DNA of 20,172 nucleotides from a virus. The stretch covers positions 1-20,172 of the IMG/VR virus record IMGVR_UViG_3300000153_000011. One strand, given 5' to 3'. Positions 4,500 to 20,172 of the stretch are shown one piece after another. The notes below the pieces were generated by a model. The model saw nothing but the letters and a program-made list of their open reading frames with translations, did not search any database and was not told the origin of the DNA. A program made the translations under genes and the position numbers. Position 1 is the stretch's first letter. Every line of letters begins with the position of its first letter.

Positions 4500-4528
4500 T
4501 TGACATTAACCCCTAAATAGTATATAAT
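4500..4528 (+). promoter_or_regulatory. Consensus sigma70 promoter
   Basis: TTGACA at 4500-4505, 17-base spacer, TATAAT at 4523-4528: both hexamers match the consensus exactly. It lies in the 106-base gap upstream of the gene starting at 4594 and shares its last base with a TATAAATA box. Confidence 0.85.
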
Positions 4529-4535
4529 ATAAATA
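4528..4535 (+). promoter_or_regulatory. T4-type late promoter box TATAAATA
   Basis: An exact TATAAATA, the T4 late-promoter element recognised by the phage late sigma factor gp55, directly after the sigma70 -10 box. Predicted transcription would start near 4541, about 50 bases before the next gene. In such AT-rich DNA an 8-base match can be chance, but the intergenic position supports it. Confidence 0.55.
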
Positions 4536-13239: not shown

Positions 13240-13247
13240 TATAAATA
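13240..13247 (+). promoter_or_regulatory. T4-type late promoter box TATAAATA
   Basis: An exact TATAAATA in the 68-base gap before a virion-type gene, with expected start near 13253 and a 45-base leader that ends in AAGGAGAT. It overlaps a 7-bp inverted repeat (CTAATAT 13226-13232 / ATATTAG 13245-13251). A palindrome TTAAACGTTTAA lies at 13272-13283 in the leader. Confidence 0.65.
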
Positions 13248-17131: not shown

Positions 17132-17242
17132 ATGAAAAACTTAAAAAAAATAGTAAAAGACCAAGCAGTACATTTGTGGGCAGAACATAAAGTATTTACA
17201 ATTACTGTAGGTATCTTATTAGTGATTGCAATAATTATATAA
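17132..17242 (+). CDS. 36-residue single-span membrane peptide
   Basis: A short ORF with AAGGAAAAA before the ATG, encoding a basic, amphipathic first part (MKNLKKIVKDQAVHLWAEHK) and a hydrophobic C-terminus (FTITVGILLVIAIII), which would be N-in. It is immediately after the holin. Could be a holin modulator or a small membrane toxin; no family is recognised. Confidence 0.55.
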   Translation: MKNLKKIVKDQAVHLWAEHKVFTITVGILLVIAIII

Positions 17243-17250
17243 AGATTAAT

Positions 17251-17424
17251 ATGGATTTAGATTTTGCAGGACAATTGATGAAAATGTGGCCTATCTTTAT
17301 AGGGTTTATAACACTAGTAATAGTTCTTGCTAAAATGCATGCTACTATACAAGTGTTAGAAGAAAAAGTAAAGGTAGCTTTTCAATTGATAAACAAGTTA
17401 ACAGATTATAATTATCGTAAATAG
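17251..17424 (+). CDS. 57-residue membrane-anchored coiled-coil peptide
   Basis: Starts MDLDFAGQLMKMW, with one membrane span (about residues 14-28, PIFIGFITLVIVLAK) and a C-terminal helix with heptad character (MHATIQVLEEKVKVAFQLINKL). No good ribosome site (AAGATTAAT upstream), but 8 bases after the previous stop. The shape resembles small inner-membrane lysis accessory proteins such as XhlA types, without a sequence match I can vouch for. Confidence 0.5.
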   Translation: MDLDFAGQLMKMWPIFIGFITLVIVLAKMHATIQVLEEKVKVAFQLINKLTDYNYRK

Positions 17425-17516: not shown

Positions 17517-17524
17517 TATAAATA
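17517..17524 (+). promoter_or_regulatory. T4-type late promoter box TATAAATA
   Basis: An exact TATAAATA six bases after the last micro-ORF and 15 bases before the CsgF ATG. The predicted start near 17530 would leave a very short leader with GGA as the ribosome site, which is tight; the box may still drive the curli cassette. Confidence 0.5.
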
Positions 17525-17539
17525 GTTAAAGGACTAACT

Positions 17540-17995
17540 ATGAAAAAATTACTAATAATACTATTATTTACAGCTTATACACAGGTAACTGCGTCAGAAA
17601 TGACATTTAAATTTGGGTCACCATCATTTTCAGGTAATGGTAAGTCATCACACTACCTAACAATTGAAAATATTGAGAAGACTCGTAAAGACGCTATCAA
17701 AGCACAAGCAAAAGCAGACGCTGATAAATTAATATCAGACGCAAAGAACACACCTATTGCTAAATTCAAAGCAAATATAGAGTCCAGATTTTATACTGCT
17801 CTTGCAAAACAAATTACAGACAATGTATTTGGTACAGATGGTCTTCAACAAGACTCAGGTTCATTTACAAATCCAGTTGGCGGCGAAACAGTTGCTTGGA
17901 CAACTCCTTCAGGTACAGGTAATGTAGTAGTTACAGTTACAGAAGCAGACGGAACAACAACTGTATTTACAATGCCTAAAGAGGACAATAGTTAA
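17540..17995 (+). CDS. csgF: Curli assembly protein CsgF homologue
   Basis: 151 residues (E. coli CsgF is 138). A Sec signal peptide (MKKLLIILLFTAYTQVTA, cut after Ala18) releases a mature N-terminus SEMTFKFGSPSFSGNGKSSH. This matches the E. coli CsgF start GTMTFQFRNPNFGGN, the segment that inserts into the CsgG pore and forms a second constriction. A Lys/Ala-rich helix follows (about 48-70), then FYTALAKQITDNVFG, equivalent to the CsgF helical neck, and a beta-like C-terminus (NVVVTVTEADGTTTVFTM) like the TGQTSTIQV end of CsgF. It is the first gene of the cassette and overlaps csgG by a TAATG junction. In bacteria CsgF couples curlin secretion to surface nucleation. Confidence 0.9.
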   Translation: MKKLLIILLFTAYTQVTASEMTFKFGSPSFSGNGKSSHYLTIENIEKTRKDAIKAQAKADADKLISDAKNTPIAKFKANIESRFYTALAKQITDNVFGTDGLQQDSGSFTNPVGGETVAWTTPSGTGNVVVTVTEADGTTTVFTMPKEDNS

Positions 17996-19068
17996 TGTTT
18001 AGATATATAGGAATATTCCTACTATCTTTAATGTTAGTAGGTTGTGCTGGGAAAGCAAAGTTTGATGTAAGAACACAACAAGTTGCTTATAAAGAATTAT
18101 CTACAATCAAAAGTCCAGACGGAGAACCAATTATAATTGCTGTCTATGACTTTTTAGATATGACTGGTCAAAAGAAACCAGGTGGAACTTATGCTTCAAT
18201 GAGTACGGCAGTTACACAAGGGTCGTATCAGTTATTAATTAAAGCACTTGCAGACGCAGGTGATGGTAAATGGTTTAGAGTTGTAGAGAGATCAAGTTTA
18301 CCAAGTTTATTACAAGAACGAAAACTAATTAGGTCTACAAGACAACAAGTAGATGGTGAAAAGGCAGAGTCTTTACCACCACTATTATTTGCTGGTGCAT
18401 ACATCACAGGTGGTGTTGTAGGTTATGATAGTGATATTACTTCAGGTGGTCTTGGTGCTAGAGTTTTAGGTATACAAGCAAACAAATCATTTAGAAAAGA
18501 CATAGTAACTATCATATTAAGATTAGTTAATGTACAAACTGGTGAAGTAGTTATCTCAACTACAATAGAAAAGACTATTATTTCTACATCAACAGGTTCA
18601 GATGTATTCAAATATTTTGATATGGATACAATGTTAGTAGAGATAGAAGCTGGTTATGCAAAAAACGAACCAGTTACATTTGCATTAAGAAAAGCAATTG
18701 AAAAAGGTGTAGTAGAAGTTATTGAACAAGGTGTAAAAAAAGAACTATGGGAGTTTAAAAAAATAGAAGAAGTTAAAGTTCCTGAGATAAAAGATTACAT
18801 TGATGATGGTACAAATGATGTAGAAACTATTGAAGTTGAAACTACTAATAGACATAGTGATATTGTATTTACAGATGATGGTGTTGATATGGGCGAAGAT
18901 AAGGTAGAGAAAACTTACGAAACTTACCTTGAAGAAAAGAAATTAAAGAAAGAATTAGAAGCTGAAACCACAGAAAAAGAGTGGGAAGAAGTAGATAAAC
19001 AAACGGAGGAGAATGCTGATGAAACAGATAATGATAGCGATAGTGATTCTTCTAGCGTGGACAAGTAA
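17995..19068 (+). CDS. csgG: Curli secretion channel lipoprotein CsgG homologue with acidic tail
   Basis: 357 residues against 277 for E. coli CsgG. Lipobox LMLVGC with Cys17, followed by Ala (outer-membrane sorting). Conserved core: YKEL, IIIAVYDFLDMTGQ, STAVTQGS, WFRVVERSSLPSLLQERKLI, SGGLGARVLGI, VTIILRLVNVQTGEV, NEPVTFALRKAIEKGV, ELWEF. CsgG forms a nonameric outer-membrane beta-barrel pore that exports curlin. The constriction loop differs: residues 63-69 (GGTYASM) replace the E. coli YPASNF, lacking exact equivalents of Tyr51, Asn55 and Phe56. Residues 257-357 are an extra, strongly acidic tail (ends SDSDSSSVDK) that would hang in the periplasm. Its last 50 bases contain the ribosome site and start of the next gene. 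AGAGGA precedes the start. Confidence 0.95.
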   Translation: MFRYIGIFLLSLMLVGCAGKAKFDVRTQQVAYKELSTIKSPDGEPIIIAVYDFLDMTGQKKPGGTYASMSTAVTQGSYQLLIKALADAGDGKWFRVVERSSLPSLLQERKLIRSTRQQVDGEKAESLPPLLFAGAYITGGVVGYDSDITSGGLGARVLGIQANKSFRKDIVTIILRLVNVQTGEVVISTTIEKTIISTSTGSDVFKYFDMDTMLVEIEAGYAKNEPVTFALRKAIEKGVVEVIEQGVKKELWEFKKIEEVKVPEIKDYIDDGTNDVETIEVETTNRHSDIVFTDDGVDMGEDKVEKTYETYLEEKKLKKELEAETTEKEWEEVDKQTEENADETDNDSDSDSSSVDK

Positions 19069-20113
19069 AATTTACGCTGGTAATTCCGTTTGGGTTAAAC
19101 AACAAAACCAAGACAGCGATGGTTCTATCTTTATAAAACAAGATGGTAATAATAATAAGGTTGGTGTTAGTACATCACAACCTTTCATAATAGACGGAAA
19201 TAATGTAACAGTTATTATCAAACAAATTGGTAATTATAATGTAACAGATAGTAACAGTCATTTGTCATTTAAAGGCGAAGATATGACATTGAAAGTGGAT
19301 ATTACTGGTGATACTAATAGTTTTTTGTCAGACATAGATGACGCAGACGCTACAGGACATTATTATGATCTTAAAGTTGTAGGAAATCAAAATATACTTG
19401 ACTTTGACGCTTGGGCAGCTGATGATGTATCAAAAACTAATATAGATTTAGATATTGTTGGTGACTCAAATACTTTTTGGGTAAGAAGTAGAGGTGATGG
19501 TCACTTCTTATATGTTCTTATTTCAGGTGACTCAAATAATGTACAGTTTTATAGTCCTGAATCTTCAGCAGGTTTTAATACCAATTCAAACATAGCAATT
19601 GGTCCACAAGTTGAGAGTCACGGACAGTTTGCAGACACTTCAGGTAGCGAGGGTGCAACGCTGGATTTATATATGGTAGGTAATTCAAATGAATTAGCAA
19701 CTTCATCATACGGAACAGGTAACTATCAAGTACACGACATTATAGGTTCATCAAACATTTTAGGTTTACACCCTAGCCACGAAAATGATAGTACGGATCC
19801 ATATGGTTCCGCATTGATTATTTCAGGCAACAATAACTATTTAAAAACAGTTGTCAATGGAAATGATAATGAATTAAGACTACACCAATCAGGTGGCAGA
19901 AACACAGCAAGAATTTATATCTATACATCTAATTCTGATATTAATATGGCACAAACAGGTGGTGCAAATACAGCAGACATTAATGTATCAGGCGATAGTA
20001 TTTACGATTACACTTTAAACTTCACACAAAATGGTTCTGATACTTGTAATTATTCTTACAATAGAAACAATCAAACAGCAGATGTTACCGCTACTGTGGC
20101 AAACGGATGCTAA
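19019..20113 (+). CDS. Curlin-repeat exported protein (CsgA/CsgB-like)
   Basis: 364 residues from the ATG at 19019, chosen because GGAGGAG (19005-19011) lies 7 bases upstream; an ATG at 19013 is too close. Signal peptide MKQIMIAIVILLAWTSKIYA, then about 12-13 diverged curlin-type repeats of the form hydrophobic-x-hydrophobic-x-[QGS]-x-G-x-x-N: for example FIKQDGNNNKV, VIIKQIGNYNV, KVVGNQNIL, DIVGDSNTF, LISGDSNNV, YMVGNSNEL, MAQTGGANTA, FTQNGSDTC. E. coli CsgA has five repeats in about 150 residues, so this is longer. Many repeats keep only the Gly and Asn, the Gln being lost. Two cysteines near the end may bridge. It overlaps csgG and is the expected CsgG cargo, a self-assembling fibre or a nucleator. 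Confidence 0.8.
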   Translation: MKQIMIAIVILLAWTSKIYAGNSVWVKQQNQDSDGSIFIKQDGNNNKVGVSTSQPFIIDGNNVTVIIKQIGNYNVTDSNSHLSFKGEDMTLKVDITGDTNSFLSDIDDADATGHYYDLKVVGNQNILDFDAWAADDVSKTNIDLDIVGDSNTFWVRSRGDGHFLYVLISGDSNNVQFYSPESSAGFNTNSNIAIGPQVESHGQFADTSGSEGATLDLYMVGNSNELATSSYGTGNYQVHDIIGSSNILGLHPSHENDSTDPYGSALIISGNNNYLKTVVNGNDNELRLHQSGGRNTARIYIYTSNSDINMAQTGGANTADINVSGDSIYDYTLNFTQNGSDTCNYSYNRNNQTADVTATVANGC

Positions 20114-20172
20114 ATGTTCAAACTTAAATTTTTCATAACACTTATAGTGCTATTGTGTACTACTGCCTTTGC
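20114..20172 (+). CDS. Start of another exported protein (3' truncated by window edge)
   Basis: The ATG directly after the curlin-repeat stop opens a frame MFKLKFFITLIVLLCTTAF that runs off the window and looks like a Sec signal peptide ending near AFA. Given the cassette it is probably another curli component (second subunit or CsgE-type accessory). Only 19 residues are visible, so identity is open. Confidence 0.6.
   Translation, partial: MFKLKFFITLIVLLCTTAF

Follow-up and report, generated by a model that had tools for sequence, protein, structure and literature searches.

Why should a lytic phage carry genes for building extracellular fibres? The question is raised by the last 2.6 kb of IMG/VR virus record IMGVR_UViG_3300000153_000011, which was analysed here as a window of 20,172 bases, and in which homologues of the curli genes csgF and csgG and a gene for a curlin-repeat protein are packed tightly on the + strand. 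The reading that we tentatively prefer is that these genes came from bacteria as an operon for curli-type (type VIII) secretion and fibre formation, which the phage has rewired to be expressed late and which serves to hold cells or progeny together. Such curli modules were already published in 2020 and 2022 for T4-like marine phages and for pelagiphages (PMC7029224, PMC9004378, PMC9599517), and a first, sequence-only reading of this DNA had mentioned curli-like genes in some marine phages. The phage module is real and known in kind, and its discovery is not in itself new. What is added here is a putative clade-wide late promoter, a bacterial operon with the same five genes, a curlin-like strand in the FecR-domain protein and the features of a variant that we call the long type. 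It is an open question in the literature what use fibre-building genes are to phages of streamlined marine bacteria, and both the late-promoter signal and the similarly designed bacterial operon help to narrow the purpose of the module.

Gene content and conservation of the module

The best 80 of 88 homologous viral loci were kept. csgF was in view at 80 loci, made up of 78 viral contigs, the pelagimyophage HTVC008M and the methylophage Melnitz; L033, L072 and L084 were without it. The clade of the window phage, the long type, accounts for 64 of the 80. The remaining 16 are the short type plus L066, a locus with a CsgG that is basal to the long-type clade, a long curlin and a long FecR, but no TATAAATA (the promoter motif described below); it was grouped with the short type in the promoter and selection counts. 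Contig L002, which matches the window without a difference across the 10,178 bp compared, extends past the window end and supplied the rest of the module. The upstream part of the window encodes a UvsX-like recombinase, a DnaB-like helicase and other T4-like phage genes, which bears out the T4-like context; the best matches of UvsX among phage records were Melnitz (70%), a Synechococcus phage (69%) and HTVC008M (68%). Rfam and tRNA scans of the window gave no matches.

All three curli genes exceed the curated Pfam cut-offs of their families. csgF (17540..17995, + strand) encodes a 151-residue homologue of the exported pore cap or chaperone (PF10614, E 8.9e-12, 45.7 bits against a cut-off of 25.8). 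Its mature start is SEMTFKF, as first proposed, and the N-terminal motif pattern was matched in 52 of 54 distinct viral homologues. csgG (17995..19068, +) encodes a 357-residue homologue of the outer-membrane lipoprotein pore, with the CsgG domain at about residues 1–258 (PF03783, E 3.9e-50, 170.5 bits against 20.8) and an LVGC lipobox recognised by eye; a profile built from 12 phage CsgG sequences matches a solved CsgG chain at 6e-72. The third gene (19019..20113, +; an ATG at 19013 is also possible) encodes a secreted curlin-repeat protein of 364 residues with three significant PF07012 stretches (E 6.7e-8, 32.8 bits against 20.7). The dozen repeats counted at first sight hold as 12 conserved G-x-x-N turns across 31 aligned relatives, seven pairs being invariant and five nearly so. 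A fibre or secretion module, as first proposed, is likewise supported. The coordinates also confirm an overlapping unit: csgF and csgG share 1 nucleotide (nt), csgG and the curlin gene 50–56 nt, and the next ATG (20114) directly follows the curlin stop codon. The overall order is late promoter motif, csgF, csgG, curlin and fecR, with a cyclase gene either behind fecR or divergent before csgF.

Median ratios of nonsynonymous to synonymous divergence (dN/dS) in the long type were 0.19 for csgF, 0.30 for csgG, 0.33 for curlin, 0.28 for fecR and 0.22 for the cyclase (pairwise NG86, using pairs with synonymous divergence pS of 0.05–0.65 and open reading frames (ORFs) begun at the first start codon). 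These values indicate that all five module genes are maintained by purifying selection.

The cassette had been called complete-looking, which is true of csgF, csgG and curlin but not of CsgE. PF10627 found CsgE in none of ten records, which included two of the long type (171 and 177 kb) and three bacterial genomes, the virus records being possible fragments; the E. coli control was matched. A pore lacking CsgE may be ungated, which lends something to the proposal made for Melnitz and the pelagimyophages (PMC9004378, PMC7029224) that CsgG and CsgF act as a holin- or secretin-like pore that times lysis or admits larger molecules, the other genes being secondary. Late expression would also be compatible with lysis. 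Nevertheless, curlin and fecR are kept beside csgFG under purifying selection, and the premise of a missing curlin fails in the long type, as it does for Melnitz, whose record annotates two curlin-repeat genes. Moreover, CsgG spans the outer membrane, not the inner. We consider use of the pore alone unlikely.

The long-type CsgG carries an acidic C-terminal tail (18769..19065, +) that is a feature of this clade. In 38 long-type sequences it has a median length of 98 residues (46–166), 31% of them D or E, and a dN/dS of 0.57 compared to 0.20 for the core, indicating that the tail is loosely constrained. Other CsgG proteins examined (ten phage, two bacterial) end at 260–291 residues in 11 of 12 cases, the twelfth being that of L066 at 338. 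The residue equivalent to the constriction phenylalanine, F56 in E. coli, is M in long-type phages. We considered this as a sign of altered pore function and rejected it, because this position is variable among bacterial CsgG proteins (F 18, L 17, Y 4, I 1 and N 1 in 41 matched rows; 8 were unmatched); for the same reason the residue is no criterion of family membership. Separately, L084 (OR851715.1), an unannotated record of 1,499 bases named Salmonella phage S.Kent 1-2-1, contains a CsgG at 187–1020 that branches among bacterial sequences with the constriction motif of E. coli, and is probably host DNA labelled as phage.

The late promoter motif

A T4-type late promoter motif, TATAAATA, is located at 17517..17524 (+) upstream of csgF. 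The motif occurs three times in the window, always on the + strand and ahead of an ORF, and all three copies fall within the 589 bases (2.9%) that lie outside the 31 listed genes. Since the number of copies is not above that in shuffled sequence (3 compared to a mean of 4.85), the evidence for the motif lies in its position and conservation. Of the 42 distinct long-type windows, each covering 100 nt upstream of csgF, 37 had the exact motif, while 200 shuffles of the same windows gave a mean of 1.65 and a maximum of 7. Four of the other five (L047, L053, L058 and L063) carry CATAAATA instead, and L021 carries neither. Among control ORFs of at least 120 residues on the + strand, a set that includes some that are not genes, 12 of 587 had the motif within 60 nt upstream. 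When 45 distinct sequences were aligned, the eight motif columns were 87–100% identical, compared to 36–84% for the neighbouring columns shown.

In the long-type clade the motif sits about 30 nt before csgF, and in HTVC008M it is found 13 nt upstream of the annotated csgF start. A hairpin followed by a T-run was seen by eye just upstream of the motif in L004, L006, L007, L031 and L048. The annotated late sigma factor of HTVC008M has a homologue in all four of the other large records searched, two of which are long type. Judged on these sequence features, the late promoter that had been suspected at this site holds for the long type and for HTVC008M. Sigma-70-like sites occurred in the window at chance level (100 compared to 97.5 in shuffles) and were rejected. 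Late-promoter prediction in pelagimyophages is described as unsuccessful by Zaragoza-Solas et al. (PMC7029224), 15 late promoters are reported for Melnitz in PMC9004378, and module expression was seen in sea-water metatranscriptomes in PMC9599517. No earlier report of a late promoter before csgF was found in the literature searched, within its limited coverage.

The conserved motif is a sequence-based constraint on timing for the long-type lineage, and it argues against early-acting roles. It has been proposed in PMC9599517, where curli biofilms are said to limit phage penetration, that fibres or matrix change the surface of the infected cell and block superinfection by competing phages. Expression from a late-type promoter would come after most superinfection has been decided. 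The exclusion genes of T4 itself are early. A role in superinfection exclusion thus appears quite improbable for these phages. Should late timing be borne out, it would favour a role in the final phase of infection, such as aggregation, tethering of progeny or lysis.

The two other copies of the motif lie at 4528–4535, before a phrog_455 gene, and at 13240–13247, before a phrog_11617 gene, which suggests that these genes head two further late units. Just 5' of the curli promoter, at 17132–17424, are two tiny ORFs of 36 and 57 residues with hydrophobic stretches, possibly membrane or lysis peptides.

The curlin-repeat protein

The predicted model of the curlin-repeat protein (predicted local distance difference test, pLDDT, 73) consists of strand-turn-strand repeats with irregular coil spacing and long loops. 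Among the 50 matches shown, it aligns with right-handed beta-helix proteins, including tailspikes and polysaccharide lyases, with VIA Z values of 14.1–17.0 over 247–294 residues. We treated these values as reflecting a shared arrangement only. Together with the irregular spacing and the loops, they could also describe an adhesin or depolymerase-like protein with a beta-helical fold, which would leave the cell through CsgG and possibly bind to released particles, rather than an amyloid subunit. The PF07012 matches and the location of the gene next to csgF and csgG speak against such a protein, as do the ease with which repeated beta strands align with any beta-helix and the lack of a significant Foldseek match, and we find this the most doubtful of the explanations weighed here. 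From the sequence we infer that the protein may form amyloid. Two cysteines near its C-terminus (window 20045–20110) are conserved in at least 90% of the 31 relatives, and possibly form a disulphide cap.

The FecR-domain protein and the cyclase

The fourth gene begins with a signal peptide at 20114..20172 (+), where the window end cuts it, and is complete in L002 (10120–12270). The full product has 716 residues, a signal peptide recognised by eye and a FecR domain. The expectation of an exported fourth protein was thus correct; its FecR domain, like the cyclase gene behind it, was hidden from the first reading by the window end. The PF04773 match is below the curated cut-off both in L002 (7.4e-4, 20.4 bits against 24) and in L004 (0.001), and above it in the short-type and bacterial relatives scanned (5e-8 to 7e-12). 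A Foldseek search with the predicted model returned the FecR/PupR anti-sigma signalling domain fold (4m0h, 3e-6; 6ovk, 1e-4). The model (mean pLDDT 65) has this fold at its N-terminus, followed by a disordered linker and helices, with nine beta strands in the last 110 residues. In the same model, 63 aligned columns match 5ix9, a “Cell surface anchoring domain”, with a root-mean-square deviation of 1.0 and E 3.4e-3, a weak hint from the model of a relation to surface adhesion.

FecR anti-sigma regulators have an N-terminal cytoplasmic anti-sigma domain and an inner-membrane helix before the FecR domain. No anti-sigma domain is present in the phage protein, in which a signal-peptide-like helix (residues 2–19) leads directly to a FecR domain starting at about residue 28. 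Because the cytoplasmic part is missing, the phage FecR is not a textbook regulator. Its terminal strand (N-x-I-T-I-I-Q-T-D type) is similar to the one with which the short curlins end. Near the C-terminus, the pattern [IVL][TDNKV][IVL].Q was present in 44 of 45 distinct FecR proteins, the only miss being half of the split gene of L012, and in 5 of 1052 other distinct ORFs, namely four short-type curlins and one reverse-strand ORF. The pattern was defined after inspecting the sequences, making these counts descriptive, and long-type curlins, which have different C-termini, were excluded from the control. All nine FecR clusters carry the curlin-like strand, and it is alike in two bacterial FecR proteins from Caulobacteraceae. 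Because this strand is curlin-like, it suggests that FecR may dock on curlin through its C-terminus, turning an assumed iron regulator into a testable partner of the fibre.

The fifth gene, complete in L002, encodes a CHASE2-adenylate cyclase (PF05226, 2.2e-27; PF00211, 1.5e-20). Three class III catalytic motifs are present in all 40 long-type sequences. The motif pattern used for the short type was too strict, matching only 2 of 10; inspection by eye of 14 cyclase ORFs showed the residues to be present, with the exceptions of Melnitz (L083), in which the last motif is altered, and of the cut-short L068 and L069. In many long-type relatives the cyclase gene is divergent in front of csgF rather than downstream. 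Among 25 distinct divergent regions, 24 contain the forward motif [N]ATAAATA and 24 the reverse motif [N][ACT]TAAATA, the latter a descriptive count because that motif was defined after inspection; L047 has neither. Since TAAATA-type motifs are found on both strands, the inverted cyclase may well remain co-regulated with the module. In L054 (12503–14428), and likewise in L053 and L055, the minus strand behind fecR contains a further ORF resembling a cyclase, in addition to the divergent one.

Bacterial operons with the same genes

CsgF was sought in three overlapping samples: 385 Alphaproteobacteria, 398 genomes of the order of G012 and 398 of its phylum. Matches were found in 7 (6 over the cut-off), 42 and 37 (36 over the cut-off), respectively. 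FecR and a CHASE2-cyclase adjoin csgFG in 3 of the 31 bacterial loci read, those of G012, G013 and G790. The first two, titled Caulobacteraceae metagenome-assembled genomes (MAGs), were found through similarity to phage CsgG, and G790 through the CsgF profile alone, on a 706-kb contig. Because the five-gene set is adjacent in three bacterial genomes, FecR and the cyclase are, from their gene neighbourhoods, probably not phage inventions but part of a bacterial operon type, in which they can be studied outside the phage. In the CsgG tree, for which 48 phage and 75 bacterial sequences were reduced to 32 and 55, respectively, the short-type phages group with G012 and G790 in a 15-row clade that includes MAG contigs (99/89), and the long-type clade is left at an unresolved fork. 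No earlier report of a bacterial FecR-CHASE2 curli operon was found in the literature searched, to the extent of its coverage.

Descriptions of FecR beside a CHASE2 receptor exist for a biofilm operon of Burkholderia (PMC5192318) and for S. meliloti (PMC5498481). We considered a general FecR-CHASE2 partnership and found it weak: the pairing is a minority arrangement in the bacterial sample, occurring at 3 of 30 CHASE2 loci (the best-scoring, one per genome, not a random draw) compared to 0 of 57 csgF loci.

Contigs L085, L086, L087, L091 and L092, with a GC content of 33–38%, carry csg genes close to those of the phages but sit in MAGs titled Flavobacteriaceae, Flavobacteriales, Rhodobacteraceae and Pirellulales. 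The L086 genome has four CsgF matches on four contigs. These five contigs are probably mis-binned phage DNA.

Proposed mechanism

In the secretion and fibre operon that we prefer, CsgG would form a pore in the outer membrane late in infection, capped by CsgF, and export the curlin-repeat protein, so that infected cells and their debris would become covered with adhesive fibres shortly before lysis. Once exported, the FecR-domain protein would dock on curlin by its C-terminal strand and couple the state of the fibre or envelope to the CHASE2 cyclase and cyclic AMP (cAMP). Published proposals for the purpose of phage curli include uptake, sibling capture, lysis timing, superinfection defence and recombination (PMC7029224, PMC9004378, PMC9599517). 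Of these, the most likely benefit would be sibling capture, in which neighbouring host cells or released progeny are held together in dilute sea water. Both the fibre and this benefit are what we infer for the window phage from its genes.

Several observations weigh against this mechanism. CsgE was not found in the ten records searched, Foldseek returned no significant match to the curlin model (none under E 0.19), and Buchholz et al. (PMC9004378) report no clumping with cultured Melnitz under their conditions. Of the 11 distinct windows that are not long type, only 2 contain the exact TATAAATA, and the Melnitz csgF upstream window is without it. For FecR, the overall confidence of the model is low (predicted template modelling score 0.31), the bacterial FecR of L168 has no C-terminal strand, the Pfam curlin model gives no match to FecR in nine proteins scanned at E 10, and FecR adjoins CHASE2 at so few of the sampled bacterial loci. 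A more specific role, that of a fibre-assembly sensor taken from a rare bacterial operon type, in which the FecR strand binds the growing curlin fibre and signals assembly or contact through CHASE2 and cAMP in the dying cell, seems to us rather improbable. If true, a lytic phage would be monitoring its own amyloid in order to time or tune its exit.

Comparison with known systems

The E. coli curli system (csgBAC/csgDEFG) shares CsgG and CsgF homologues and curlin repeats with the phage unit, which differs by the addition of FecR and a cyclase and by the CsgE result given above. The three bacterial operons are closer in design. G790 has the exact long-type gene order, whereas G012 and G013 have two curlins before fecR. 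Their FecR proteins have a signal peptide like that of the phage, and two of the three have the C-terminal curlin-like strand. However, the bacterial CsgG proteins have no acidic tail, FecR is only ≈350 residues, the cyclase is ≈690 residues and the context is 52–57% GC.

HTVC008M and Melnitz share csgF, csgG, curlin, FecR and cyclase in a similar order, but have a second curlin between fecR and the cyclase, which the long-type unit lacks. Their curlins are 228–239 residues, compared to 364 here, and their FecR proteins 368–369, compared to 716. While UvsX of the window is 68–70% identical to theirs, CsgG is only 38–47% identical, and the acidic tail belongs to the window phage. The motif TATAAATA precedes csgF in the long type and HTVC008M but not in Melnitz, and the divergent cyclase of many long-type relatives is unlike the arrangement in either. 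The podoviral pelagiphages of the HTVC023P type, compared here by their description in PMC9599517, which also searched Myoviridae contigs, share csgF, csgG, csgA/B, FecR and often an adenylate cyclase (AC), without CsgE; they differ from the long type in having a histidine kinase in front and, in many cases, two curlins. In SAR11, csg genes are described as absent (PMC7029224). As a variant of the published phage modules, the long type is marked by a CsgG with an acidic tail, a single large curlin in which two cysteines near the C-terminus are conserved, a FecR that is about twice as long and a putative late promoter about 30 nt before csgF.

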